DNA of 64,000 nucleotides, taken from assembly GCF_003967015.1 (NCBI RefSeq), contig NZ_AP017560.1, positions 620,001-684,000 of the forward strand. The letters run 5' to 3'. The notes beneath the pieces are model-generated. The model saw only the letters and a program-made list of their open reading frames with translations, did not search any database and was not told where the DNA came from. Shown here in pieces: positions 184 through 48,333 of the stretch (position 1 is its first letter; each line of letters begins with the position of its first letter). This DNA is from Pseudanabaena sp. ABRG5-3. GTDB lineage: Bacteria; Cyanobacteriota; Cyanobacteriia; Pseudanabaenales; Pseudanabaenaceae. The position numbers and the translations under genes were made by a program.

Positions 184-639
184 TCAAAATTTGGGGCGAT
201 CGCCTGAAAAATTACTCCACCATCCATCAGTCTGAGCAATGCCTGCAAATTTGATTACCTGTTCTTTGGTCATTAAGTAAGCCCATGCCAATCCTAGAGA
301 ACTTCCTGCTAGATCAAAAGTTTCTATCTTTTGGCGATCATATAAATTTTCAGATAAATTTTCAGAAGTAGCCCGATCGCTTTGATAGTCTTCTAGATCA
401 TCCATAGCTTCTAAAATAATGTCATCGGGAAATGTAAGCAAATATCCATATACTTGCTTATTACCGATGGTCATCGCAGGATAACCCATCGGCAGAGCAA
501 ATAATTCACCATAGGCGATCGCCTGTTGCTGAGTGATTACTTGACCAGCACAATATTTGTCATAGTTAGCTTCGTTAGGCTTGAGCGTGCCATAGACAAA
601 GACATGGCATTGGTCAGGGCTTGGGCTATTTTCTGTCAT
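184..639 (-). CDS. Gamma-glutamylcyclotransferase-like (GGCT/AIG2 family) protein
   Basis: A 151-residue protein whose N-terminal VFVYGTLKPNE matches the YGTL substrate-binding loop of the GGCT/AIG2-like fold. Members act on gamma-glutamyl amino acids or gamma-glutamylamines and release 5-oxoproline. An acidic stretch, DIILEAMDDLEDY (about residues 73-85), is where the family's catalytic Glu usually lies. The length fits a single-domain cytoplasmic member. It lies upstream of tsf on the same strand, but a roughly 130-bp gap makes co-transcription unsure. The exact substrate cannot be read from sequence. Confidence 0.82.
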   Translation of the reverse strand: MTENSPSPDQCHVFVYGTLKPNEANYDKYCAGQVITQQQAIAYGELFALPMGYPAMTIGNKQVYGYLLTFPDDIILEAMDDLEDYQSDRATSENLSENLYDRQKIETFDLAGSSLGLAWAYLMTKEQVIKFAGIAQTDGWWSNFSGDRPKF

Positions 640-783
640 GATTCCATCATAATATTTTTATATTTATGGATTGAGCGAAGTCGAAACTCGCTTCTACTTT
701 ATGCTGATGCGATCGCCCCTACATCAGAGCTAACATAGAATGTAGTCGCCGTCCAGAAGATTAGCAATAGGAAACCAGCATCG

Positions 784-2691
784 ATGAGTAATGACAAAGA
801 TAGTTTTAAGGACAAATTTGCCTTTAAAGTCGAAGGTCTAGAATCTCTAGTAGATGATGTCAAGCAGTTGCTAAATCTTGATCAACTCATCGATCTGGCG
901 CAAAAACTCGAAGAGAAACAAAAATCTGGCGAGATTCACACAGAGGTAAATGTCACATCACGTCCTTTGGCCAGCATTCCTCGACGCGGTAATATTCCCC
1001 GATCGCCCCGTGCTGCTACAGCAACAGGCGGAAGTGGCGAAGTAACATCGCCTGATGTGGTTAAACCTGAAACACCCTCAGAGCATTCCCCCAAGGACAA
1101 GCCCCAAGCGATCGCCGAATTAGTAGGTGGCTTAGGCGATACCCTAGCGCAATTGCGGGATTTAGTGGAGATTCCTCTCAAACGCCCAGATGTACTAGCC
1201 AAGTTGGGCTTAGAACCACCTAAGGGTGTGTTATTAGTGGGACCTCCGGGAACAGGCAAAACCTTGACGGCTCGATCGCTAGCCAATGTATTAGGCGTAA
1301 ATTACATTGCGATCGTGGGTCCCGAAATTATTAGCAAATACTATGGCGAAGCGGAAACTCGGTTAAGACAAGTTTTTGAGAAAGCCGCCAAATCTTCTCC
1401 CTGTCTAATTTTTATCGATGAAATTGATGCACTCGTTCCCAATCGGGCAAATGTGGAAGGAGAAGTAGAAAAGCGACTAGTGGCTCAGTTGTTAGGTTTA
1501 ATGGATGGATTTGCGGAAACCAAGGGTGTGATTGTCCTAGCAGCAACAAATCGTCCTGATGCGATCGATCCTGCTCTCCGTCGTCCGGGGAGATTCGATC
1601 GCGAGATTATTTTCCCCATACCCGATCGCAAAGCACGCCGAGAGATTCTCGAAATCCATACGCGATCAATGCCATTAACTAGTGATGTGGATTTGGAAGA
1701 TATTGCTGATCGCGCCTATGGTTATGTGGGAGCAGATATTAAAGGACTATGCCAAGTGGCGGCAACTAATGCTCTGCGCCGTCAGGTTGCCAATGTAGTC
1801 GATATTCCTGATAATCTGAATGTTAATCGTGAAGACTTTGAATTTGCGCTAAAGCAAGTACAACCTGCTGTATTGCGATCGCTCCAAATCCAAGTTCCCA
1901 AAGTCAAATGGTCAGAAATTGGCGGACTCGCTACAGTCAAGCAAACGCTCCAAGAAGCTGTGGCTGGAGCATTAGTCGATCCCGCACTCTATGCCCATAC
2001 TCGTGCTAAGGCGGCGCGTGGGGTGCTGCTCTATGGTCCACCCGGAACAGGAAAGACTTTACTGGCAAAGGCGATCGCTACCCAAGCCCAAGCCAATTTC
2101 ATTTCCGTGGCAGGTTCAGAATTACTGACAAAATGGGTAGGGGCTTCTGAACAATCCATCCGTCAGTTATTTGCCCAAGCAAGACAGGCTTCTCCCTGTG
2201 TGATTTTTATTGATGAGATTGATACCCTTGCTCCTGCACGAGGTAGCTATCAAGGTGATAGTGGTGTTAGTGATCGCGTAATTGGTCAACTACTCACAGA
2301 ACTTGATGGGTTGCAATCGGCGGAAGGATTACTCGTAATTGGCGCAACCAATCGTCGCGATTTTATCGATCCTGCATTATTGCGATCGGGCCGAATTGAG
2401 CTGCATATGATGGTGGATTTACCTGATACCGATAGTCGTCGTGCAATTTTGGAAGTACATAATCGCGATCGCCCCCTTGATTGTCATCTCAATTTAGAAA
2501 TCTGGGCAGAACGGACGGAAAATTGGAATGGAGCTGATCTTGCTTTCTTAAGTAACCGTGCGGCGATCTTTGCGATTCGTCGCCATCAACGCGATCACTC
2601 TAATCAATTAGAAAATCAACTAGAAAATTTGCGAATTACGAATGAAGATTTTGAACAAGCCTTTGCCGAAATCCAAGCACAAAGAAATTAA
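784..2691 (+). CDS. CDC48/VCP-like ATPase with two AAA domains
   Basis: A 635-residue protein with two AAA modules. The first has Walker A GPPGTGKT near residue 153 and Walker B LIFIDEID. The second has Walker A GPPGTGKT near residue 420 and Walker B VIFIDEID. Both carry arginine-finger and sensor segments ([17 protein letters not shown]). This is the architecture of Cdc48/VAT unfoldases, which pull proteins apart with ATP. The first 110 residues are low-complexity and do not look like the Cdc48 double-psi barrel N-domain, so substrate or adaptor binding probably differs. The second module ends RSGRIELH rather than RPGRFD, a variation often seen in bacterial members. The gene stands alone and ends in a hairpin shared with the converging gene. 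Confidence 0.88.
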
Positions 2692-2720
2692 TTGAAGAGC
2701 GCATAGCGCTCTTCAATTAA
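2688..2720. terminator. Bidirectional hairpin spanning two converging stop codons
   Basis: Perfect 15-bp arms (2688-2702 and 2706-2720) with a 3-nt loop. The arms contain the stop codon of the AAA ATPase and the stop codon of the gene on the other strand. AT-rich ends give U-rich tails in both directions, as expected of a shared intrinsic terminator. Confidence 0.7.
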
Positions 2721-3001
2721 TATTCAAACACCCAAATTGCCCATCCTTTGGCAATTACTGTGATTACATAGGCTACAGAAAGGCGACTAGTTAATTTTTC
2801 TACTTCCGCCCAACTAGAACTAGTCCGAAATAGACTATAGGTAAAACTGTTATAAGTAATTGCAGCTATGGGTTTATCTAAATCGTCCAGTTTAATATGG
2901 TGATATCGAACTTGAGCAGGCAAAATTACAAAGTTAGATGTTTTTTGCCCTCCCAAACGAAACAATTCACTTTCATTTAATGGGGCATTTTGTTCTGTCA
3001 T
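2717..3001 (-). CDS. Hypothetical protein, 94 aa
   Basis: No family recognised. The predicted product is a soluble mixed alpha/beta protein with an aromatic, hydrophobic C-terminus (KGWAIWVFEY). It starts at an ATG and ends inside the hairpin shared with the AAA ATPase gene. The absence of a signal peptide suggests a cytoplasmic protein. Convergent placement and intact length support a real gene. Confidence 0.6.
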   Translation of the reverse strand: MTEQNAPLNESELFRLGGQKTSNFVILPAQVRYHHIKLDDLDKPIAAITYNSFTYSLFRTSSSWAEVEKLTSRLSVAYVITVIAKGWAIWVFEY

Positions 3002-3063
3002 AAATATTTTCCTAATCTCACTCCAGTTTAATATATTGCTACAGCCATACTTGTTAAGACATG

Positions 3064-3114
3064 AAGTTCAAGAGAGAGCGGTGGCAAGAAATGCCACCGC
3101 TCTCTCTTGAACTT
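3064..3114. terminator. Long perfect hairpin
   Basis: 23-bp perfect arms at 3064-3086 and 3092-3114 with a 5-nt loop. It touches the stop codon of the membrane-protein gene that ends at 3114 on the minus strand, so it can terminate that transcript. The stem is much longer than a typical intrinsic terminator. Confidence 0.6.
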
Positions 3115-3959
3115 TAAAAATTTGGACTTACCTTCTGCAATTCCGACATCGTTTTCTGTACATCGATCGCAATCTGCAAGGTGGTATCAAAAATTCGTCC
3201 ATATTCCTTGGCTTGCTCCCCTACCTGCATAGACTCAAAAGCATTTAAATCAATATCAAAGCGATCGGGATGAAAGTCAGGATGTTCTCGTAAAATCCGT
3301 TCCGTTTTTAAGGCTCTAACGATATCATTGCGAGTCATTCGCAAAGCCGCGATCGCGGCTTCTCTAGATTCTAATTTGATCGTATTACCTGCTTCTTTTA
3401 GTTGATCAAACACATCGATATCCCGAACAACCTTGTTGCACTTATCAACTTCCGTAAATAGGCGTGTCACAATTTTGGGAATTTCTAGTACAGGCTGTTT
3501 GGACTTTTTCCAATTTTGATCGATCCATTTAGTCAAAAACCAAGCCAAAATGCCACTGGCGATCGCTAAAATCAAACATAGGCAAATCGTCCCTAAAGTA
3601 GCACCCATCAAAACATAAATTGAGTAAATTGATGCTGCCAAAGCGATACAAAAACAGACGACCGTAACTTCGGCAATTTCAATAGCAATACTCAAGGCCC
3701 CCAATAGTAAGCTGATTAGCAGGATAATTCCTGTAAATCGTAATGCAGGTAAAAACATACCTGCAAATATGGCAAAGGAGATTGTCCCAACGCCTATAGC
3801 GATCGCGCGCTGAATCATAATCTGTCGCGGTGTTAAATGATTTGATTGCAACAACTTCTGGCGATCAAAACCAGTCAATTCCAAAAGTTCTGCTTCAGAA
3901 ATTAATAACCGTTCCAGATCGGCTCTCATAATTTTGGCTACTATCGTTGTCGTCATCAT
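3114..3959 (-). CDS. Hypothetical membrane protein
   Basis: A 281-residue protein. An N-terminal cytoplasmic segment (about 1-48) is followed by roughly four hydrophobic helices between residues 49 and 143 (for example AIAIGVGTISFAIFAGMF and IILLISLLLGALSI). A long soluble, charged helical domain runs from about 150 to 281. No enzyme motif was seen and no family was recognised. Two adjacent ATG codons (3959 and 3956) could start it. A perfect 26-bp palindrome ends the leader one to two bases upstream of the start, which is odd for a translated gene. Confidence 0.65.
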   Translation of the reverse strand: MMTTTIVAKIMRADLERLLISEAELLELTGFDRQKLLQSNHLTPRQIMIQRAIAIGVGTISFAIFAGMFLPALRFTGIILLISLLLGALSIAIEIAEVTVVCFCIALAASIYSIYVLMGATLGTICLCLILAIASGILAWFLTKWIDQNWKKSKQPVLEIPKIVTRLFTEVDKCNKVVRDIDVFDQLKEAGNTIKLESREAAIAALRMTRNDIVRALKTERILREHPDFHPDRFDIDLNAFESMQVGEQAKEYGRIFDTTLQIAIDVQKTMSELQKVSPNF

Positions 3960-3960
3960 A

Positions 3961-4135
3961 GAACAAGGGGCTTAAGCCCCTTGTTCTTTAGGATTAAAAA
4001 ATCTTACTTCGCAAAATTTTTTTATAAAGTTTTAGCCTATGCAGTTTTGATTTTGCCGTAGGCAAAATCAAAACTCAAAAATCTTACCGAGTCTTGTTGT
4101 GAGTTTTCAAATGAGCTTATGCTCATTTGAAAACT
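3961..4135. repeat. Cluster of three perfect palindromes
   Basis: Three unrelated hairpins lie within 175 bp between the DUF3386 gene and the membrane-protein gene, both on the minus strand. They are 3961-3986 (26-bp uninterrupted palindrome), 4044-4057/4061-4074 (14-bp arms) and 4102-4116/4121-4135 (15-bp arms). The last can terminate the DUF3386 transcript. The first lies directly before the next start codon and could instead affect its translation. Confidence 0.65.
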
Positions 4136-4142
4136 GTTATAG

Positions 4143-4856
4143 CTATAGCATCTGAATATCACTAAAGATAATTTCGTAGTTTTTGGTTTGCCCTTGCTCA
4201 TTGGATTGCACAACTTGCTTAGTCATTACATAGTAATTGCCAATCTTTTCGTAGATATCCTCAAACCGAGCTTGACGGACAATCTCATCATTCATTGGAT
4301 TACGGAAAACCGCAGTGTAGAGAGATGAAATGTAACCTTCGCCTGTATCCAAATGATCGAGGTGATTAATTACAAAGCCAATTCTACCCATGACACGACT
4401 AACCATCGAGATCTCTTTACCACGTACTTTGTAATTTGATCCCATTGAGTCACCCGTTACCAAAATCTCGACGGCTCCTGACTCATCGGTTGCACCAAGA
4501 TTAAAGCTAGATTTACCATGAGCTTCTTCAAAGGTCTTGCGTTTGCGGTGGGTGACGACATCGCGCAGTTGATTGTACAGCCATTCCTGACCTTCATCAA
4601 CGGATACTGTTTTTTCTTCACCACTAGGAGTGCGACTGGTACGCTCAACTAATTGAGGTTCATCCATGCTCACTTCCACGGTCAGATCACCATTGATGCG
4701 GGCTTTTCCTGTGCGAGCCACGCCATTGATCGCTACCGATACATTAGCGGTTAGCCCAGGGAAGTTGCTATCCCATGTATAGCGATTTTCGTAAGCGGCC
4801 TGAAATAAATCACGGGCGTTAGTATCGAATTTAGTGTCTGGGGCTGCTGTAACCAT
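4143..4856 (-). CDS. DUF3386 family protein
   Basis: A 237-residue protein starting MVTAAPDTKFDTNARDLFQAAYENRYTW, the characteristic opening of cyanobacterial DUF3386 proteins. Other family-like segments are LYNQLRDVVTHRKRKTFEEAHGK in the middle and LDTGEGYISSLY, GNYYVMTKQVV near the end. The family is restricted mainly to cyanobacteria and has no established function. No signal peptide or membrane helix is visible, so it is probably cytoplasmic. It is followed by the palindrome cluster and preceded by a Family A palindromic repeat. Confidence 0.85.
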   Translation of the reverse strand: MVTAAPDTKFDTNARDLFQAAYENRYTWDSNFPGLTANVSVAINGVARTGKARINGDLTVEVSMDEPQLVERTSRTPSGEEKTVSVDEGQEWLYNQLRDVVTHRKRKTFEEAHGKSSFNLGATDESGAVEILVTGDSMGSNYKVRGKEISMVSRVMGRIGFVINHLDHLDTGEGYISSLYTAVFRNPMNDEIVRQARFEDIYEKIGNYYVMTKQVVQSNEQGQTKNYEIIFSDIQML

Positions 4857-4932: not shown

Positions 4933-5035
4933 TAAGTACTTGTGCAAAATAAATTACCCAAACCCGTAAAGTTGCGCCCCATAGGGGCGCAACTTTACGG
5001 GTTTGGGTTTGTAATTAATTATGCCTAGCTACTTA
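4933..5035. repeat. Palindromic repeat, Family A copy 1
   Basis: A nested hairpin with a perfect 25-bp inner stem (4956-4980 and 4984-5008). The outer boundary ends in AATTATGCCTAGCTACTTA, shared with copies near 7035, 36000 and 55335. The outer arms are conserved among copies while this inner stem differs from theirs. It lies between two minus-strand genes. Confidence 0.65.
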
Positions 5036-5055
5036 CCACGAGCATCATTAGGGAT

Positions 5056-6771
5056 TTAATTTCCGGGTGTGGGCTTAAGTGTAAACAAAAAATCTAAGCG
5101 GGTGGTTTTGGCATCAACATTGGTGGAAGTAACTGAGATCCCATTGATTGCATCTAAAACAGCTCGAACTTCGGTAAAGCTGGGATTAGATTTAACTTCA
5201 GGAGGTAATAGGCGATCGGCAAGAGTCAGGGCTGTAGTCATATTTAGATAGAAATAACCACCATTGGATTTGGGAAGTCCTGTAGTCAAGATTTGGAAGG
5301 GACTACTTTCGGGTAAGTTGCGAGCGGGCTTAGGAACAAAGGTATCTGCAAGATCGCCCATTGACCAAAAGACAAAGTTATTATCTAAACTGCCACGGGT
5401 TGCGATGGTTGTATTAGCGATCGCCCAAGTTACTACGGATTTGTCTCCAATTTGCTTTGGCTTTAGCTCAACCCCTTTGGGCAATAATCCACTAGAGGAC
5501 TGGGCCGCTTTATCAATTTTATCGAGAGCTGCTTGAGCCACATTCTGATCACTAGCTTGGGCGATCGCCACAAAGCCAAATCCGGGGCTTGCCAAAATGC
5601 CTTGGTTATTAGGAATGGCTGCGATCGCAAATTCTCCATTCATCCATTTGAGAATATCTTGATCCAGATCAAGCTTGGTCGTATCTTTTACCCCTTTGCG
5701 AATCTGATCGATCAGTTGAGCCGAGCTAGCATTTCCCTTAGACTGAGCAACTAAAGATTGCCAAGACTGATATAGATTCACCCCTGATACCAATAAGAAG
5801 GTTTCCTGTGGCAAAAGATTGAGTACCTTTGCTTCGTTATTTATCAGTGGATTAGAGTTCTCATTCTTGAGATAGGTATTAATCTCAAAGCGTAAACCTT
5901 CCTTCTGGGTTCCACCAGTAAGCGTCATCGCATCCAGTTCGCGACGGGACTGGGTAATTGCCGATTCATTCAAATTCAGCTTTGCCTGAGAGCCGATAAA
6001 CTCTAGTGCTACTTCCCCATCCAGATAAACTTGCAACAACGGATCGGCGATTTTAGTTTGATTAGCAGAACCATAAATCTTGGCAAAGATCGGCTTTTTG
6101 GCAAGGGAGGAACTAGTACCTTTGTAAGTATCGATCGCCTGCTGCATCAATGCAGGGCTGGTGGAGAGTGCCACATACTGCCCTCCCAGATCTGCGGTCA
6201 CAACACTATTATTTGGGTCACGGGTGGGTGACTCATAGTAGGTGACATCTTTATACTGCTTAGAGGTAAATCTTGCCCCTTGCTGCGTTAAAGCTTCACG
6301 ATATTTGGTCAGAAAGGCATCAGACTTGCTGCGATCGCGGGTTGGGGCAATCACTAAGGTTGCCGCAGGCGCTTGTGGCTGGGCAGAGTTTGGAACAAGT
6401 GCTGTCATCACATAACCATCTAACCAAGGCTGCACATCACGTCCATATTCTGTTTTGCTTTGGACTAGCAGAGAATTAAGTGGAGATTTAGTGATCCCAT
6501 CACTAATTAGCTTTTGTGATGCAGGTGTCCCAAATTGCGCCAATTTATTCCAAGGCTCAGATTTGGTATTAAATGCCATTACGATTTGTGCTTCTTGGGG
6601 GATCGCTGCTGCCGCACCCAAAATCCCTTTAGTTGCTTGCGATCGCTGAGAAAAATAGAAATAGGCTCCCCCTGCGCCTGTGGCAACCACAGCAGCGCCA
6701 ATGCCTATGTACATCAACAGAGTCGATTGTTTGGTTTGTGTAGATTTGTTAGTTCTGGATGACTTTGACAT
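5056..6771 (-). CDS. DUF3352 domain protein, membrane-anchored
   Basis: A 571-residue protein. Residues 1-17 are basic and Ser/Thr-rich. A single hydrophobic segment (about 19-41, LLMYIGIGAAVVATGAGGAYFYF) then acts as a membrane anchor or uncleaved signal. The remaining roughly 530 residues are probably periplasmic or lumenal and carry the repeated beta-rich DUF3352 pattern (IPQEAQIVMAFNTKSEPWNKL near the start; LPQETFLLVSGVN and a related WAIANTTIATRG in the second half). DUF3352 proteins are widespread in cyanobacteria and have no assigned function. The gene is monocistronic here, with repeats on both sides. Confidence 0.82.
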   Translation of the reverse strand: MSKSSRTNKSTQTKQSTLLMYIGIGAAVVATGAGGAYFYFSQRSQATKGILGAAAAIPQEAQIVMAFNTKSEPWNKLAQFGTPASQKLISDGITKSPLNSLLVQSKTEYGRDVQPWLDGYVMTALVPNSAQPQAPAATLVIAPTRDRSKSDAFLTKYREALTQQGARFTSKQYKDVTYYESPTRDPNNSVVTADLGGQYVALSTSPALMQQAIDTYKGTSSSLAKKPIFAKIYGSANQTKIADPLLQVYLDGEVALEFIGSQAKLNLNESAITQSRRELDAMTLTGGTQKEGLRFEINTYLKNENSNPLINNEAKVLNLLPQETFLLVSGVNLYQSWQSLVAQSKGNASSAQLIDQIRKGVKDTTKLDLDQDILKWMNGEFAIAAIPNNQGILASPGFGFVAIAQASDQNVAQAALDKIDKAAQSSSGLLPKGVELKPKQIGDKSVVTWAIANTTIATRGSLDNNFVFWSMGDLADTFVPKPARNLPESSPFQILTTGLPKSNGGYFYLNMTTALTLADRLLPPEVKSNPSFTEVRAVLDAINGISVTSTNVDAKTTRLDFLFTLKPTPGN

Positions 6772-12747: not shown

Positions 12748-15700
12748 CTATGGCTTCTGTTCAGGGAACATACACTTATCGGAATCGCAACCAGCAGGCC
12801 CCGCCTCCATCAACTCACCCGAATCATAACGCAACAAACTCGCGTAAAAATCATCAGACTTGCGACGTACTAGCACCTCAGCACTGAGCTTCTCATAGGT
12901 AGCCTTATCGATTGGCTCAAAAGGCAAACGGGGGAAAGTTTGGAGGTCATCAAAACGCGCCAATAGCGCCGCCGAGATATAACCCTCATCATCACGAATA
13001 GCTTCGTAAATCTTCTTCCCTAAAGGCTCGATTTCATGCTCGCGCAATTCCAAGGTTGCCGAAGTATTATGACGGGTGTAATGCTTCTGCACCTGCATAT
13101 AGAAATCAAATTGCGCCATCACATCAAACTTGCTGATTTCCACCTGATCCGCACCGTCAAGGTCAGCCCAAGACACGCTCACAGGAATCTCCACCAGCCA
13201 TTCCGTACATCTCGGATCGAAAGGATCGTTTAGCAATTGTCCATTCTCATCCTTGTCCGATTGTGAAGGAATGATGCTATAGCCATAGTCCATGCAAGCC
13301 CGCGCCACAGGATCTTCCTTACGGAAAGTAATCCGACGGATAAATCGCTGCGCCTTCGGTGGATGCCATCCAGGGGAAGCACCAGTCAGTAAGGATTTCG
13401 TGCCTGCTGGCTGAGTTGTCGTGCAACGATTGGGGCGGCGTAAGCCATGCGCGTCGCAATATTCCCAAACCGTCTGATGCACGATTTCACGCCAGCGATT
13501 TAGATAATCAGCTTCCTTCTCTTTGAAGTCTAGCCCCTGCACAGTGTCAGGACGACCCGCCTCAAACCAGCGCAACCATTCTACACCAAAGGCATGAACG
13601 AAGAAGTCAAATAGACCTGTGAAGGATACGCCCACAATTGGGTCAACTTCACGACTAAATTGATAGCGTTCTTCATTGAAGCGATGATTGAGTAAAGCAG
13701 CAACGGACAAAGCGCCTGCTTTAAAGGCTTCTTCCTGTTCTTTCTCATTACGAGGATTGAGTTGATTGAGATGCACCTCAGACAAATTGCAATGGAAGTC
13801 TGCCCCAGTTATTTCTCCACATGGATTCAGGGCATAACGCTGTAATCTATGCGCTAGCTCACGTTCAGTGACTTCAGGCTGATGCGATCGCAACCATTCT
13901 TTGCCTTCTCCTTTCACATAAGCAGCAAGGAAATCACGCTTGAGTTCGGTCGTTGTAATCAAGTCAGCATTAGAACGCGCGATTGCCTCACCTGCCCATT
14001 GAATTGCACCTTCACCCGAATAATATTGCTTACGAACAGCATCAACACATTCTTGTTCAGTCGGTTTGCGATGGAATACACGAGTATGATTCGCCATTCT
14101 CAAAGCATCACGCTCAGGATCAATTCTCCAATTACCAGCTTCGTCTTGCTGCCAAAGATTATCCTTTGCCACAGAACCTAAAGTATCTTCTGAAGAGAAT
14201 TGGCGCATTCCTGCTGAGTTGTGCGTCAGATAGCCATCACAGTAGAAGCAATGAGCTTCTTCCACTTCAATGTCGTAGGTTTGCACATAGTCTTGACTAC
14301 CTAAACCTTTAACGCTCACTGGAATATCCATGCTTACATCGGATTCGGCAATGTAGCGCTCATAGTTAGAATTAACAGTGCGAGAGCCTTGGAAACCCAT
14401 GTCACGCATTTCGCTATAGGTATAGACTTCACGCATCATTTCGGCAGCGATCGTAAAGCCATACATTTTCAGTCCTTGACGGATTTCACCCTTAACTGAA
14501 TGCTGTGCAATGAGTGCGTTGTATCGTTCTTTTAGAGCAGGAATAGTGAGATTATATTTTGCTTGCCAGTTTAGTTCTTTAGGCGTAGTAATACTGATTC
14601 TGCCAGCAATCCCAAGACTCGAAAGAACAGCACTTACCTGTCTAACAAATTGACGGTAAACAGATGTCACAAGATGTGGAGGACGATTATCAACTGCACC
14701 ATCGCTATCCATTAATCCTGCAAGATAAGCAGAACGAATATCTGTAGATCCTTGCAAGATGAAAGATGGAATTTCTAAAACAGTACTTGGCTGTTTAATA
14801 TGTTTATGGAAGTATTCAGCCAAACGAATTGATGTACAGACTGTTTTTGCGGTGTTTTCTCCCTTGACTACACCGTGAGTAGCTGTCAAGCCAAACATTG
14901 CTAAGGCTTGATCTAGTTTCGCTTGTAGTTTTTGGCAAAGCTCAGGCTGAGTTGCATTCATCGCCCATTCTACTCGTCCATAGGGCTTGTCATGCTTATT
15001 CCGTCCTAAAGCCACATAGCCATCACCATGCGTAAATCCAATCAACCAAGCCACTTCGGGAGTTAAGGTTGGAATTGTAATGGATTTGGCATTGCGACTA
15101 TGACTAGGACGTTGCTCAGTATCATCTTCTGGTAAATGAGTGACATTTCCTGAAAGAATTTGAGTGCTGTGCATGAGGCGATCGCCTTCATCAAGTGCCG
15201 CCACATATTTCCAACGAATACTACCCTTGGCATCAGCTAAAACGGCTATACGATGGTTAGTAGTCGCTCTAGGGAAAGTGGCATTAGTTTCAATCTCTTG
15301 AACTTCTTGGATTCCCTGATCGAATTTGTTGAGGACTTTACGGAAGCCCAAAGGAGTTTGAACCAAATCGCCAACTTGCACATCCTTAATCGCAACTAAT
15401 CCCTTGTCTGTATGCACAAGAGCATCTTCAGGAAGACAACGGCGGATATTCCCAGCTACGATGCAAACGGCGGCTTCATCGATGAGGATGCAGCACTCGA
15501 CGGAGGTGAGTTGACGACCGATCGCTTTATTTAAAATATTGGCACAGCGATCGTAGAGCGTGGGCAACTTGACAGGATTTGCCATGCCGCCGAAGCCCTT
15601 GAGGGGTTCACCACTGGGGCGAACATCGCTGATATCAACGGTAATTTGGACGGGCTTAGTCTCATCAAATTGTTCGTTGCTAGAGAGTTCGAGCAAAGAT

Positions 15701-16272
15701 TGATAGGACTTGACCCAACCTTGACGACTATCGCCGACAAAAAACTTGACGGCATTGTTAGCGTAGTCAAATTCGACTTCGGTATTGTGGCGACGCTTTT
15801 CGACAGGGGTTGCGCCGATCGCACCGATCACATTTACTTGCAACTGGTTACGAATTACGGGTAGTTGGCTGATGTACTGCGGCTCTAGTACGCCGCCAGT
15901 GCCAGAGCCTTGCATGGCGAGATCCATCATCAAGCCAAAGGAGCGCCAGTCGATGACATTGGTGCTGGTGCAGTTATAGGAGCCAGAGAAATTTTCGGGA
16001 CGATCAACCCAATCCGTACCACCAACCCACAGCCAACGCCCAGAGGTGAGGGACTTTAGCTGCTTTTGCATCTTGTCGATTAGGTCAGCTTGTTCTTGGG
16101 TCAGCTTGCCTAGCGTTTTTAAACCTGTAAGTGTGCGATCGCATACCTCCGCCCAGCTTTCCCGCTTGTTATTATATTTGCGGCTATATGTCCTAAAAAA
16201 TACGGGATAAGCGGCAGGAGCGCTGTCGGGAAATCGCACCTCTTTATCGAGGCGAATAAATTCTTGCACCAT
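12748..16272 (-). CDS. nrdJ: Class II (adenosylcobalamin-dependent) ribonucleotide reductase, intein-containing
   Basis: A 1174-residue precursor; removing the intein (residues 279-685) leaves 767 residues, the size of monomeric class II ribonucleoside-triphosphate reductases. Class II reductases make deoxynucleotides using a cobalamin-derived thiyl radical and need no oxygen. Key residues seen are Cys101 (NCTSTNV), the NPCGEI loop with the thiyl-radical Cys818, Cys828 (FHCNLSEVHL) and the C-terminal redox pair Cys1162/Cys1167 (GCDSDKC). The intein lies between NIRR and SAGMRQFS, a conserved active-site region. The gene is separated from a small upstream gene by a hairpin block. The start at 16272 gives the family opening FIRLDKEVRFP. 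Confidence 0.9.
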   Translation of the reverse strand: MVQEFIRLDKEVRFPDSAPAAYPVFFRTYSRKYNNKRESWAEVCDRTLTGLKTLGKLTQEQADLIDKMQKQLKSLTSGRWLWVGGTDWVDRPENFSGSYNCTSTNVIDWRSFGLMMDLAMQGSGTGGVLEPQYISQLPVIRNQLQVNVIGAIGATPVEKRRHNTEVEFDYANNAVKFFVGDSRQGWVKSYQSLLELSSNEQFDETKPVQITVDISDVRPSGEPLKGFGGMANPVKLPTLYDRCANILNKAIGRQLTSVECCILIDEAAVCIVAGNIRRCLPEDALVHTDKGLVAIKDVQVGDLVQTPLGFRKVLNKFDQGIQEVQEIETNATFPRATTNHRIAVLADAKGSIRWKYVAALDEGDRLMHSTQILSGNVTHLPEDDTEQRPSHSRNAKSITIPTLTPEVAWLIGFTHGDGYVALGRNKHDKPYGRVEWAMNATQPELCQKLQAKLDQALAMFGLTATHGVVKGENTAKTVCTSIRLAEYFHKHIKQPSTVLEIPSFILQGSTDIRSAYLAGLMDSDGAVDNRPPHLVTSVYRQFVRQVSAVLSSLGIAGRISITTPKELNWQAKYNLTIPALKERYNALIAQHSVKGEIRQGLKMYGFTIAAEMMREVYTYSEMRDMGFQGSRTVNSNYERYIAESDVSMDIPVSVKGLGSQDYVQTYDIEVEEAHCFYCDGYLTHNSAGMRQFSSEDTLGSVAKDNLWQQDEAGNWRIDPERDALRMANHTRVFHRKPTEQECVDAVRKQYYSGEGAIQWAGEAIARSNADLITTTELKRDFLAAYVKGEGKEWLRSHQPEVTERELAHRLQRYALNPCGEITGADFHCNLSEVHLNQLNPRNEKEQEEAFKAGALSVAALLNHRFNEERYQFSREVDPIVGVSFTGLFDFFVHAFGVEWLRWFEAGRPDTVQGLDFKEKEADYLNRWREIVHQTVWEYCDAHGLRRPNRCTTTQPAGTKSLLTGASPGWHPPKAQRFIRRITFRKEDPVARACMDYGYSIIPSQSDKDENGQLLNDPFDPRCTEWLVEIPVSVSWADLDGADQVEISKFDVMAQFDFYMQVQKHYTRHNTSATLELREHEIEPLGKKIYEAIRDDEGYISAALLARFDDLQTFPRLPFEPIDKATYEKLSAEVLVRRKSDDFYASLLRYDSGELMEAGPAGCDSDKCMFPEQKP
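14218..15438 (-). mobile_element. Intein with LAGLIDADG homing endonuclease in nrdJ
   Basis: 407 residues (279-685 of the precursor). Splice block A starts with Cys279 (CLPEDALVHT). Block B includes ATTNHRIAVL. Two endonuclease motifs follow, WLIGFTHGDGYVAL (about 409-422) and AYLAGLMDSDGAVD (about 515-528), each keeping its catalytic Asp. Block F is YDIEVEEAHCFYC and block G YLTHN, with the penultimate His684, Asn685 and the +1 extein Ser686. All residues needed for splicing and for DNA cleavage look intact, so the element is probably both splicing- and homing-competent. It interrupts the protein immediately after NIRR. Confidence 0.93.
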
Positions 16273-44172: not shown

Positions 44173-44346
44173 AACCTTGTTGGTGATTTGTCTCGATGAA
44201 TTCATTAAAACGCCATCACCAAAATAAAAACCCTTGCGAAAACCCTAAAATCCCCTAGAATGCCCTAGACTTTGCAAATAGGGGATTACAAGCATTTTTT
44301 AGTAGGCTATGATAGGCATCAAAGCAATGGTTTGTATGCAAAAACT

Positions 44347-47300
44347 ATGTCCTATCAAAATTTTCTGAATGACATTGCAGATAAATATGATCTTTCAGGA
44401 GATGAGAAAGAAACATTTAAGTATGTATTCGATTGCAAAATAAAAAAGCATCAATATGTGTTGGCTCAAGAGCTAAGTATCTCTGATAAAGAGTTGCAAT
44501 CTAGGCTCACAATAATTTATGACAAGTTCAAACTTGAATTAAAAGAGATAAATAGTAAAGGAAAATTTAAAGCTCTTGGATATTGGTTGCAAAAGCAATA
44601 TGAAGAGAGCATTCAAGTTTTACAATCTCATACTATTGATTGGCAGAAAGTTTGTAGGAGAAGATTGGCTAAACAGAAAGAGGATAGGCAACTGCGAAAA
44701 AATGCGACTGCTATTGGTGCGGAGGTGAATGTTTATGTGCCTCTCGATCTTTTGGAACAGAAAGAGCAGACTCGTAGCAAGCAAGACAAAGGAGATTCAG
44801 AGCGCAATCAGTATCAAGAACGAAAGGTAGTAAAAACTTACGAGCATGATGATTTCTTAGGATCGCTGACTGATCGGCAGAGTAAAAATAAGCATATTGC
44901 GATTGTAGGTGAAGCGGGGGCTGGTAAAACTACGTTATTAGCAAGAATTGCTGATGAGTTGGATAAAAAGCAGAAGTTACAAATTTTTGTAAGTTTGGCA
45001 GATCTGCAAGGGCGATCGCTAGAAGAGTATATCTATGGAAATTGGCTATCTAAAGCGCTAGGTGTGCAAACAGATTCTATAAATGCAGAGCAAAAAAGCG
45101 ATCTATTTCAACAGTTTCAAGCTGGTGAGATTTGGTTGCTGTTGGATGGTTTGGATGAAATGAGGGCTAAGTCTTCGGCGGATGCGTTAGAGAAGATTAA
45201 TCGCGAAATTAGAGAGGTGATTGGTCAATCGCGAGTGGTGTTAACTTCTCGGTTAAATGTTTGGGATGCTTATCTGAATAGGTTATCAGGTTTTGATACG
45301 TTCAGAATGGAGGATTTTTCGCCTGAGCAAGTGGATAAATTCATCAGAGATTGGTTTGTTAGTGCTGAGAAGCCTGAGAGTGCGCCAATTTTGCAAGCTA
45401 AGCTCAAGGAACCTAATCGCGATCGCATTCGGGATATGGTAAGGCATCCTTTGCGGTTGGCTTTGTTGTGTCAGGCTTTTTATCGCGATTTGAATACGGA
45501 ACTTCCTGAAACGAAAGCGGGATTATATGAGCTATTTGTTCGCTATTTTTATGAATGGAAGCCTAATATTGTTGATGAGGATTTAACTCAGGACACATTA
45601 CGAGAAGAATTGCATCTTGCCTTGGGGAAACTAGCGATCGCTGGTATTGATGGTGATGCAGGTTTTCGGCTGTCGCGTAGTTTGGCTGTAAAGGAGATGG
45701 GAGATCGCTTGTTTAAGTTGGCTAGTGATGTTGGTTGGTTAACTTTGATCGAGCGTGATGAGCAAGATCAAGAGGTTTATGCTTTTTATCATGCATCTTT
45801 TCAAGAGTATTTTGCTGCTTTAGCGATCGATGATTGGGATTTCTTTTTGCCTAACAATCATATTGATAAGCCAGCAAAGGATCATAATGATAAGTATAAA
45901 GAATATCGAGTTTTTGAACCTAGATGGAAAGAAATTATAGCATTTTGGATGGGGCGAAAAGATAGATATATTGAGAAAGAATCTTTTATTAAGGTATTAA
46001 TAGAATTTGAAGATGGATGTAAAGATTTTTACTGGCATCGTGCTTACTTTCTTGCTGCGACTTGTCTAATTGAATTTAAAAATTGCAAATTTGCCGAGGA
46101 AATTATAGAGCAAATAATTGAATGGACTTATACTTATAGTTATATCAATATTGAATACCCGTATTATGGGCATTATATCAGTTCATTAGACAATGAAGCA
46201 CATACTATACTTATTACGCTAAGCCAATTTCAAGTTTACAATAAATTTATTATTGATAGACTCAGTGAGCTTTTAAAATCATCTGAAATTGATAAAAATT
46301 CATCCATCTTAATAGCAGAAATATTAGGCACAATAGATTTTGGCAATCCAAATGCACTCTTTTATTTAGTTCAAATTGTCAAAAGCTCTAAATTTAAGAA
46401 GCCTGATTTGAAGTCTTATAGCGCCACATGTTGGAGAGCAAAATCCAGTCTAGAGCAACTAGCAGTGGGCGATCTGAATACAATCAGTATGCTTACTGAA
46501 ATATTGCAAGATCCACTAATATGCGAAGACACTCATTCGCTAGTCTTAAATATATTAAAGGTAATATCTGTTAATCATATTGAAGAAACTGATTCTGATA
46601 GTCCAGCTAATTTTAACAACATTACTAATACACTTGAAGAATTACAAAGATTTTTAAGAGATGAATATATACAATATAGAAAAGTAATACCAATACTGGA
46701 AGAACTGGTAGATATAGTCAATAAGATAATAGTAGGAAAAGAAGAATTAGACTCAAAACTACTCTTTGACGATTCGGATATTAAATTGCTTTTCTATAAA
46801 AAATTAGTAGATATAATAAATGATGAAATAGTAAAAAATAAACGGTTAGGAATGAAAAGAAATGCTAATTATATAGATGTTGAATACCTTTTTTATAGAA
46901 TATTTTGGTGTAAAAATAACAGGCTTGATGAAATAGTGTGGAGTCTGGGAAAATCAGCAGTAGGTAATACTGAGAGTGTCTCTATCTTAGTGGACACCTT
47001 AAAGCATGAACAACTTGACAACTATACTCGATATCGGCTTGCAGAATGTCTAGAAACAATAGATAGAGGTAATATTGAAGCTTTTTCTTCTTTAATGAAA
47101 ATCATACTGGAGAATAAACATTTAAGTAATGAAGCAGTACACTCTTTAAGTGAAATAGCTGTTAGTAATGCTGAGGTAATTTCTATCTTAGTCAATACCT
47201 TACAAAATGAACAACTTGATGATAATACTCGCTATAATCTCGCAAAAGTTCTAGGTAAAATAGATACGGGTAACGTTACATCTATTAGTACTTTGATAGA

Positions 47301-48333
47301 ATTGCTGCTCAAATCTATAAATGATGAGCATCCAGACACATCAGAAGCAGAACTTTTAGGAGAAGTAGGGGCTGGGAACTCGGATGTTATCAATTTATTG
47401 CTTAAAATTTTGCGCGATACCAAATCTACTGATGAAATGTGCAACTCAGTGTTAGTTGGGTTGCTTAATGCCTTAAATGGATTGCCAGATAAAGAAATTG
47501 AACTGTGGAAATTAGATGTAATCAGATCTGTGGAAGCCGCTTTGCAGAAAGCACCAGTTCTTAGCGATGTAAATTGGTTGGCAGCAAAGGTTTTATGTAT
47601 TGTGGATAAAGGTAATACTACTGCTATTAGTGCTTTATCTATGCTTCTATTAAACTTTAAATCTTATTCTTGTTCTTACCGTAATGATGATAGTGATGAT
47701 TCTGATGGGATACTATCTCTTGTAGATATTTTCACTAATATTGTTGCAGGTGGAAGCATTTCATCATGGAAATTTGCGGTAAATAAACTAAGAGAAGGAG
47801 TCAATCATAAGACTTATAAAAACATCTACAATAATTTTAATTGTTGCTATGAATCCCTCTGGCATTGCGCTCAAAATATGAGCTATCAAGATTTTTATGA
47901 TGCATGGCACTCATCCACAACTACTATTCAACACCTAGAGCATCAGTTTTTAGATTACGATGCAGTTCAACAAGAACTCGATCGCAATGCTGACCATCCC
48001 AAAATACTCTGTTTAGTTGTCGATATCAGCCATCTCGAAAACTTCACTGATCAAAATCTCCTATCAAAAAGAATTTGGAATGGACTGCAAAGGCAATTTC
48101 CTGATTGTGAATTTCCCAAAGTTAACGATATTGGAGATTTAGAATACGAACTTAATAAATTGCAAAGGAATTTAGGTAAAAAATTAGCGATCGCCCTTTA
48201 TGGCAGAAGTGCTAATGAAGCGATCGCGCAACTCTGCCAAAGCCTAGCACCAATCCAAATACGCCCATTCATAGGAGGACAAACCACCCAAGAACTCATC
48301 ACTCAAATTAATGCTTGGCTAACGGAAATGTAA
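44347..48333 (+). CDS. NACHT-domain NTPase with HEAT-like repeats (bNACHT / NLR-like)
   Basis: ATG 44347 (MSYQNFLNDIADKYDLSGDE) is the likely start; the longer frame begins with TTG 44272. 1328 residues from the ATG. Residues 1-65 resemble a helix-turn-helix module (LAQELSISDKELQSRLTIIY). After a linker, the NACHT domain has Walker A GEAGAGKTT (188-196), Walker B LLLDGLDEM (264-272) and VVLTSRLNVWD. About 560 residues of alpha repeats follow, with repeated AxGNxExISxLVxxLxxEQLDDxTRY units. A C-terminal alpha/beta region (from about 1225) reads KILCLVVDISHLENFTDQN. The order sensor repeats, STAND NTPase and helical N-terminal module is that of bacterial NLR-like antiphage proteins. The effector is not identifiable. 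It stands alone in a TA island. Confidence 0.85.
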   Translation: MSYQNFLNDIADKYDLSGDEKETFKYVFDCKIKKHQYVLAQELSISDKELQSRLTIIYDKFKLELKEINSKGKFKALGYWLQKQYEESIQVLQSHTIDWQKVCRRRLAKQKEDRQLRKNATAIGAEVNVYVPLDLLEQKEQTRSKQDKGDSERNQYQERKVVKTYEHDDFLGSLTDRQSKNKHIAIVGEAGAGKTTLLARIADELDKKQKLQIFVSLADLQGRSLEEYIYGNWLSKALGVQTDSINAEQKSDLFQQFQAGEIWLLLDGLDEMRAKSSADALEKINREIREVIGQSRVVLTSRLNVWDAYLNRLSGFDTFRMEDFSPEQVDKFIRDWFVSAEKPESAPILQAKLKEPNRDRIRDMVRHPLRLALLCQAFYRDLNTELPETKAGLYELFVRYFYEWKPNIVDEDLTQDTLREELHLALGKLAIAGIDGDAGFRLSRSLAVKEMGDRLFKLASDVGWLTLIERDEQDQEVYAFYHASFQEYFAALAIDDWDFFLPNNHIDKPAKDHNDKYKEYRVFEPRWKEIIAFWMGRKDRYIEKESFIKVLIEFEDGCKDFYWHRAYFLAATCLIEFKNCKFAEEIIEQIIEWTYTYSYINIEYPYYGHYISSLDNEAHTILITLSQFQVYNKFIIDRLSELLKSSEIDKNSSILIAEILGTIDFGNPNALFYLVQIVKSSKFKKPDLKSYSATCWRAKSSLEQLAVGDLNTISMLTEILQDPLICEDTHSLVLNILKVISVNHIEETDSDSPANFNNITNTLEELQRFLRDEYIQYRKVIPILEELVDIVNKIIVGKEELDSKLLFDDSDIKLLFYKKLVDIINDEIVKNKRLGMKRNANYIDVEYLFYRIFWCKNNRLDEIVWSLGKSAVGNTESVSILVDTLKHEQLDNYTRYRLAECLETIDRGNIEAFSSLMKIILENKHLSNEAVHSLSEIAVSNAEVISILVNTLQNEQLDDNTRYNLAKVLGKIDTGNVTSISTLIELLLKSINDEHPDTSEAELLGEVGAGNSDVINLLLKILRDTKSTDEMCNSVLVGLLNALNGLPDKEIELWKLDVIRSVEAALQKAPVLSDVNWLAAKVLCIVDKGNTTAISALSMLLLNFKSYSCSYRNDDSDDSDGILSLVDIFTNIVAGGSISSWKFAVNKLREGVNHKTYKNIYNNFNCCYESLWHCAQNMSYQDFYDAWHSSTTTIQHLEHQFLDYDAVQQELDRNADHPKILCLVVDISHLENFTDQNLLSKRIWNGLQRQFPDCEFPKVNDIGDLEYELNKLQRNLGKKLAIALYGRSANEAIAQLCQSLAPIQIRPFIGGQTTQELITQINAWLTEM

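Follow-up and report, generated by a model that had tools for sequence, protein, structure and literature searches.

An intein in the cyanobacterial ribonucleotide reductase gene nrdJ and a synonymous codon signature at its empty insertion sites

The nrdJ gene of Pseudanabaena sp. ABRG5-3 is interrupted by an intein that is itself ordinary of its kind, and intein-free relatives of this gene carry a marked excess of rare synonymous codons at the very boundary where the intein would insert. Our analysis of the window (the whole 64,000-nucleotide stretch under study, positions 620,001 to 684,000 of contig NZ_AP017560.1) and of homologous genes across the phylum supports the presence, within a class II ribonucleotide reductase, of a canonical class 1 intein whose LAGLIDADG endonuclease is apparently intact. 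The explanation that best covers the whole of our observations, to which we assign a probability of roughly 0.7, is that of a homing intein at NIRR/SAGM that belongs to an old, re-invading family and for which the recoded empty genes are poor targets. Under this explanation, the precursor would be spliced by the Cys1, His-Asn and Ser+1 route to yield an active reductase (RTPR), while the endonuclease would cut the joined NIRR-SAGM sequence in the empty nrdJ copies that it encounters, and repair would copy the intein plus a few tens of bases of flank. The old family would re-invade by homing both within and between cyanobacterial genera, and the A family, to which the intein of the window belongs, would compete with a second, approximately 36% identical allele for one codon boundary. 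Intein-free genomes of carrier-containing clades would for the most part be recoded, with AGA, AGG or CGA in place of CGC or CGT at Arg278 and with GCG at Ala280, a recoding that spares the enzyme and plausibly makes the DNA a poor substrate.

Results

Anatomy of the intein and its host enzyme

The extein scored 749.1 bits against TIGR02505 (cut-off 340.05), which places the host protein in the RTPR family, and the insertion site aligns to VAGNVRR/S of the L. leichmannii enzyme (1l1l). An earlier note on this DNA had proposed a 407-residue intein with Cys279, His684, Asn685 and Ser686 as its splicing residues; the coordinates (14218-15438), the length and the residues are all exact, and the two LAGLIDADG motifs that it described do retain both aspartates (Table 1). 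Asp139 was conserved in 19 of 20 aligned sequences and Asp246 in all 20, and in the wider A-like family both aspartates were found together with a stop-free reading frame in 52 of 60 copies. The element has the features of a class 1 intein, namely an N-terminal Cys1, a His-Asn end (...THN) followed by Ser, and a precise in-frame insertion. T59-T-N-H62, which we take to be the block B TxxH of the Hint splicing domain, is present in the window, with T59, N61 and H62 invariant across the 20 sequences.

Table 1 Features of the interrupted nrdJ gene, in positions of the window.
Feature	Position	Strand	Basis
nrdJ ORF with intein, monomeric adenosylcobalamin-dependent ribonucleoside-triphosphate reductase, 1174 aa	12748..16272	-	ORF; TIGR02505
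N-extein, 278 codons, end ...AGNIRR	15439..16272	-	uninterrupted homologues
C-extein, 489 codons, start SAGMRQFS	12748..14217	-	ORF translation, C-extein matches
Intein (A allele), 407 aa, Cys1 to His-Asn	14218..15438	-	ORF; exact empty sites
Cys279 (intein Cys1) codon	15436..15438	-	Cys first in 60/60 A-like copies
His684-Asn685 / Ser686 codons, C-terminal splice junction	14215..14223	-	HN end in 59/60 A-like copies
LAGLIDADG motif 1 LIGFTHGDG, Asp139 of intein	15019..15045	-	Asp in 58/60 A-like copies
LAGLIDADG motif 2 LAGLMDSDG, Asp246 of intein	14698..14724	-	Asp in 55/60 A-like copies
Left half of inferred homing site, codons 274-278; Arg278 = CGT	15439..15453	-	extent inferred
Right half of inferred homing site, codons 279-283	14203..14217	-	extent inferred

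Profile searches gave matches above threshold to Pfam LAGLIDADG_3 (38.4 bits, cut-off 22.5) and Hom_end (31.4 bits, cut-off 21.1), and to NCBIfam intein_Cterm (16.0, cut-off 15.6, E 0.011). Pfam Intein_splicing reached 22.4 bits, under a cut-off of 35.8 that is a library value and no biological trait; the Hint domain is split by the endonuclease insertion, and the splicing-residue features are present all the same. The endonuclease matched 1dq3 (E 5e-4) and chains of PI-SceI (E ~0.07-0.09), the folds compared being those of PI-SceI and PI-PfuI. As the AlphaFold model of the intein was poor (pLDDT 50.7), evidence for the fold comes from these profiles.

The intein does follow NIRR as the earlier note had stated, although its description of the site as next to catalytic regions is loose, given that the NPCGE motif lies ~130 residues further on and is a separate insertion site. 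The note's further claim that the enzyme needs correct splicing is supported by the gene content of the genome (5.66 Mb, 99.8% complete), in which there is only one RTPR C-extein copy and in which searches for a class I small subunit, a PF02867 barrel and a class III enzyme were all negative, the PF02867 search being informative only for other kinds of large subunit since this profile misses the nrdJ of the window too. Thus, nrdJ is the sole detected ribonucleotide reductase of the genome, and with no other found, the cell probably depends on the splicing of this intein, which would make splicing essential to it.

Elsewhere in the window, positions 44272-48333 (forward strand) encode a 1353-residue NACHT NTPase with an NCC-H C-terminal motif, just under the cut-off for NCAB1, which we take to be a bacterial NLR-like candidate defence protein.

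Three alleles and exact empty sites at one codon boundary

Of 386 genomes sampled from the phylum, 37 gave an intein match (E <= 0.001), three of them weakly (G068, G284 and G352) and with an empty 278 site. The nearest named carriers are P. mucicola FACHB-723 (95%) and Pseudanabaena sp. SR411 (94%). Within the genus, the C-extein is present in 25 of 26 genomes (G405 gave no C-extein match), and at the boundary of codons 278 and 279 these 25 genes hold an insert of 1221 bp (A allele, n = 6), an insert of 1182 bp (B allele, n = 5) or none (n = 14). Matches in 37 genomes, combined with relatives that have exactly 0, 1182 or 1221 extra bases, mean that the intein is not a chance feature. Copies of the A allele are 92-100% identical within the genus; the B allele is 36-37% identical to A and ends in ...SN. 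A third allele, ending in ...VHN, occupies the same site in 3 of 80 carriers. The closest empty gene is that of G407, with a C-extein 99% identical to that of the window.

The three states are scattered over an rpoB tree of the genus (24 rows, 23 scored, G404 and G395 being absent), where they need 7 changes for a minimum of 2; shuffled labels gave a mean of 8.4 changes, and a count no higher than 7 arose 21 times in 200. A phage or plasmid origin was considered and rejected. For a phage or viral source, 3 stretches of viral contigs fit a pattern and none was a relative (a comparison that covers close relatives only), and distant matches at 22-47% identity appeared in 13 of 50,697 phage records; for a plasmid source, 1 of 72,556 plasmid records matched, at 25% identity.

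The gene also hosts other elements. In G390, a group I intron (RF00028, 90.5 bits; L143 4170-4427, reverse strand) sits at the NPCG/E position of nrdJ, and inteins of other genomes lie 1-2 codons from it, so that introns and inteins share this catalytic-motif site. An insert of ~1.24 kb is found within codons 388-413 in G391, G392, G393 and G403 (L141, L142, L135 and L134, respectively); that of G391 and G403 contains an ORF with KPDFLLADGSYVEIKGG or a close variant, which to our eye resembles a PD-(D/E)XK nuclease motif, and Rfam gave no match on L134. A split intein at this second site, suggested for these four genomes by frame lengths, was rejected because G391 and G403 show an NPCG/E insert with a separate ORF. 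The flank upstream of this insert is unusually divergent in G391 and G392, as if co-converted from a distant donor. Five Pseudanabaena genomes (L138, L140-L143) have an 1152 bp insert at codon 550/551, and the insert of G388 at this position reads as an intein (TTQPAG/TKS). Finally, a second partial match to the nrdJ N-terminus lies upstream of the gene in G407 (L120 962-1102) and G392 (L142 9162-9302), in both cases covering extein positions 7-53, and in G402 (L123 4499-4794; extein 1-50 and 64-98).

Rare synonymous codons mark the empty sites

Among the 10 members of the genus in which all three sites are free of elements, codon diversity reaches its whole-gene peak at codons ~268-292; diversity among empty genes is high also around codons 410-425. 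Scored for atypicality relative to their own codon usage, 54 empty genes from clades with carriers have their top six six-codon windows starting at codons 273-278, which amounts to an atypical stretch of ~10 codons about the insertion point (codons 274-283). The window at 279 is also fairly atypical in carriers, the second highest of theirs. The elements at 400-423 gave no codon signature with family-wise support (small introns alone: codon 412, t 4.7, p 0.21).

Rare arginine codons (AGA, AGG or CGA) were present at Arg278 in 11 of 14 discovery empties of the genus (2.0 expected) and 29 of 40 others (8.8 expected), compared to 0 of 11 carriers of the genus, 5 of 42 carriers of A or B elsewhere and 2 of 2 of the third allele; these discovery counts are exploratory, as the sites had already been read when the codon class was drawn up. 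A C-extein match was present in 143 of 386 genomes, and the 40 empty loci outside the genus are a fetched subset of these, chosen as best-scoring or fetchable by coordinates, with their codons unseen at the time of choice and the class defined afterwards. From the codon counts, 14 loci of already represented genomes were dropped, as was L023, which is identical to L009.

The Arg278 class and the test for GCG at Ala280 were then fixed before further genes were taken. For this validation set we took another 98 genes from the G024 family (18 loci plus 80 regions in listing order), of which 94 remained after removal of 4 already used. Rare Arg278 was found in 58 of 69 empties (22.0 expected) and 6 of 25 carriers (8.2 expected; Fisher 1e-7, not tree-corrected), and GCG at codon 280 in 41 of 69 empties and 3 of 25 carriers (Fisher 4e-5, not tree-corrected). 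Pooling all genes, 98 of 123 empties have rare Arg278, where 32.9 would be expected from their own usage, compared to 10 of 77 A/B carriers; over all carriers the count is 13 of 80 (21.2 expected), with AGA or CGA in each of the three third-allele carriers. GCG at codon 280 follows the same direction, with 68 of 123 empties (15.6 expected) and 15 of 77 A/B carriers. The CGT of the window gene is of the class usual among carriers. Since carriers mostly have common codons and empties rare ones, the change lies mainly with the empties.

We controlled for relatedness with paired comparisons. Across 22 independent pairs, taken on supported branches of a tree of 109 rows built without the columns of the site, common Arg278 goes with occupancy 14.5 vs 1.3 times (median p 0.001). 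A scan of 727 codons over 34 edge-disjoint pairs ranked codons 278 (t 4.9) and 280 (t 4.0) as its top two, the strongest position in the opposite direction being codon 37 (t -3.9). In the combined scan (203 rows, 55 tree-disjoint pairs, 308 codons), codon 278 reached t 7.1 (family-wise p <0.001) and codon 280 t 4.3 (family-wise p 0.005), and no other of the 308 positions passed. The tree-controlled replication is partial, the paired scan being weak in the validation set by itself: discovery alone (35 pairs, 704 codons) gave p <0.001 at 278 and 0.34 at 280, validation alone (19 pairs) gave family-wise p 0.054 at 280 and 0.45 at 278, and the genus alone (8 pairs) gave p 0.076 at 278. Of the neighbouring positions, Arg277 differs in raw counts and in the 109-row tree test but not in the combined paired scan, and Arg283 shows no difference between empties and carriers. 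Ser279 is weak after tree control, although TCN and AGY codons both occur there; of the 39 near-invariant serine positions, only one other shows this mixture, and that owing to one genome.

Genes further afield allow the same positions to be compared. Among 17 empties of other families, rare Arg278 occurs in 9 (2.4 expected) and GCG at 280 in 6 (4.0 expected), the latter excess not being clear. In family f20, all 35 loci are empty and no intein was seen at the 278 site in these 35 genes; rare Arg278 here is in line with own usage (16 of 35, 18.7 expected), the loci splitting into 19 with none (3.2 expected) and 16 that all have it (15.6 expected), and GCG at codon 280 occurs in 1 of 35 (4.5 expected).

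Proposed resistance and its alternatives

Because the encoded residues are identical, the codon difference cannot act via protein splicing, and DNA recognition or translation are the possible routes. We consider synonymous target-site resistance, arising by selection or by the survival of prior bearers, the likeliest cause, with the balance tipping modestly in its favor. In the same measure, we lean towards the view that the intein drove convergent synonymous recoding of Arg278, and often of Ala280, in many intein-free lineages, and that the third allele may be adapted to it. Arg278 is at the insertion point, close to the expected cut. Rare Arg278 in 10 of 77 A/B carriers, 8 of which retain both aspartates, means that a 'resistant' codon is no absolute barrier, or else that codons drifted after insertion. 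According to an excerpt of PMC13405050, a LAGLIDADG recognition site is typically 22 bp, about the size of the atypical stretch. Counting against resistance, homing endonucleases easily tolerate single synonymous changes, as an excerpt of PMC3024317 has it.

The strongest competing account is that the signature is not one of resistance, the carriers having received a co-converted donor codon and the empties having kept an ancestral or translation-related stretch of rare codons. Flank sharing near the site is real (see below), rare codon clusters can pace translation, and further single codons (27, 10, 3 and 318) are atypical in the empties too. However, co-conversion would explain why carriers are uniform and not why rare codons are in excess in the empties, while pacing should show in f20, where codon 278 follows usage and GCG at 280 is below it; moreover, just 278 and 280 pass the combined paired scan. 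On this evidence we regard the account as unlikely, and synonymous resistance remains our preferred reading of the signature.

Age of the intein

The earlier note took the intact endonuclease as a sign of recent acquisition, a claim that the divergence values do not support. Compared to the five other A copies of the genus, the intein of the window has a dS of 0.47-0.86, no lower than that of the extein (N-extein 0.51-0.68; distal C-extein 0.38-0.41 in four pairs, one not being computable). dN/dS is ~0.04-0.06 for the whole intein and ~0.03-0.07 for the endonuclease part (14 of 15 pairs, excluding G391/G392), which is under strong purifying selection. With intein dS no lower than extein dS and the endonuclease under such selection, an intact endonuclease does not mean a recent arrival; indeed, intactness is the rule in the A-like family.

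Recent acquisition by this genome is nevertheless an explanation with some points in its favor, as the distribution is patchy, the close relative G407 is empty, and one recent replacement is visible elsewhere. Between G391 and G392, intein dS is 0.007 and N-extein dS 0.106, and nrdJ differs at 25 sites in positions 1-241, at 7 in 242-4827 and at 52 after 4827. For the genome of the window, the dS test rejects such an event, none of the five other A carriers compared in the genus stands out as a donor by an intein dS well under the genome-wide value, and most of the family retains the endonuclease residues, even copies just 63-77% identical. Recent acquisition is accordingly very unlikely here. 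The intein looks long resident and not newly arrived, and its intact endonuclease is better explained by repeated homing than by youth.

The near-identical tract of G391 and G392 (L141 vs L142, ~242-4827) takes in the intein at 278 and the intron-like insert and runs into the beginning of the insert at codon 550; on both sides of it the two genomes differ.

Flank footprint and probable transfer between genera

TCA GCA directly follows the site in 6 of 6 A carriers of the genus but in none of the 14 empties or the 5 B carriers. A carriers are more similar to one another than to empties in three 24-nt windows from -12 to +35 nt, to an extent reached in none of 400 shuffles for each window, and B carriers show excess similarity in two windows from -24 to +11 (about 3 and 0 of 400 shuffles), with shuffles that ignore relatedness and with the rest of the gene as internal control. 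These 24-nt windows cover nt 715-978 and include 5 A carriers, G392 being left out there only as a near-copy of G391. Outside this range, in coarse 100-nt windows without shuffles, the A excess is never >0.003, and the B excess is 0.037 at 1301-1400 and <0.02 in the others. An excess of carrier flank similarity within ~35 bp of the site is what homing with short co-conversion would leave.

In some cross-genus pairs the inteins are far more alike than the exteins, as for L006 vs Pseudanabaena (extein ~66%, intein ~86% identity) and L038/L040 (67% vs 93%), a disparity indicative of cross-genus transfer. The L006 copy (5001-6221), an A-allele intein in a Pseudanabaenaceae MAG, has Asn in place of Asp139 and was probably transferred and then inactivated. 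At locus L321, which comes from a draft genome, a frameshift and three stops interrupt an A-like intein, through either real decay or an assembly error.

An intein that was inherited vertically, lost many times and never homed would account for the correlation of intein and extein identities (Spearman 0.79, 1596 pairs) and for an intein dS similar to extein dS within the genus. Against this, at least 59 state changes are needed on the best tree of 203 rows, flank similarity spans ~35 bp and not the whole gene, the outlier pairs above have inteins far more alike than exteins, and purifying selection on the endonuclease is sustained, all of which make this account highly improbable.

Least probable of all is that the haplotype with rare codons is a sign that the third allele targets, or once targeted, these sites: AGA or CGA at codon 278 in all its carriers speaks for this, but the allele is too infrequent among carriers, would need very frequent loss to explain so many empties, and is more readily seen as one whose specificity has changed, so that it can enter recoded sites. 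The purine-ending Arg278 of the third allele would fit such a specificity shift, in an allele too rare to judge.

Discussion

Inteins and group II introns in the RIR genes of Trichodesmium were reportedly described by Liu et al. in 2003. The present elements are like those known from cyanobacterial RIR/nrdJ genes in host gene, phylum, element kinds and the presence of several insertion sites per gene, and unlike them in combining three alleles at one site, exact empty sites, flank footprints and a codon association. The yeast VMA1 intein PI-SceI, also a LAGLIDADG intein, exemplifies the homing cycle of gain, spread, decay and re-invasion. The family studied here would share that cycle, although it resides in a bacterial chromosomal gene with no known sexual cycle and its endonuclease residues are intact in most copies. 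In synthetic gene drives, function-preserving changes of the target site block the homing nuclease; here, in contrast, the putative resistance would be natural, spread over many cyanobacterial lineages and located at synonymous positions.

A group I intron in the RIR gene of Nostoc punctiforme is attributed to Meng et al. 2007 in an excerpt of PMC12702839. A further parallel comes from the mcm inteins of Haloferax, likewise LAGLIDADG inteins with empty, occupied and 'resistant' alleles, for which at least the last N-extein codon is inferred to move with the intein (PMC10643990, in excerpt). The same excerpt attributes Haloferax resistance to an amino acid, a Pro following the site whose effect is believed to be on splicing, whereas in nrdJ the codons differ and leave the protein as it is; it also describes mostly synonymous site variants of Hfx. 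volcanii as still recognised. That conserved, functionally constrained target sites make immunity harder to evolve is stated in an excerpt of PMC2814812, and further background was drawn from excerpts of PMC4071816 and PMC1508164. Among the matches listed from the open-licence literature, as represented by titles and the beginnings of abstracts, we found no description of synonymous resistance at intein sites.

The codon pattern suggests an escape route that is open to any host, a synonymous change, and the natural sites are ready substrates for a cleavage assay of such escape. If true, this would be a natural counterpart of gene-drive resistance, and the recognition sites of homing endonucleases could be mapped from genomes alone.
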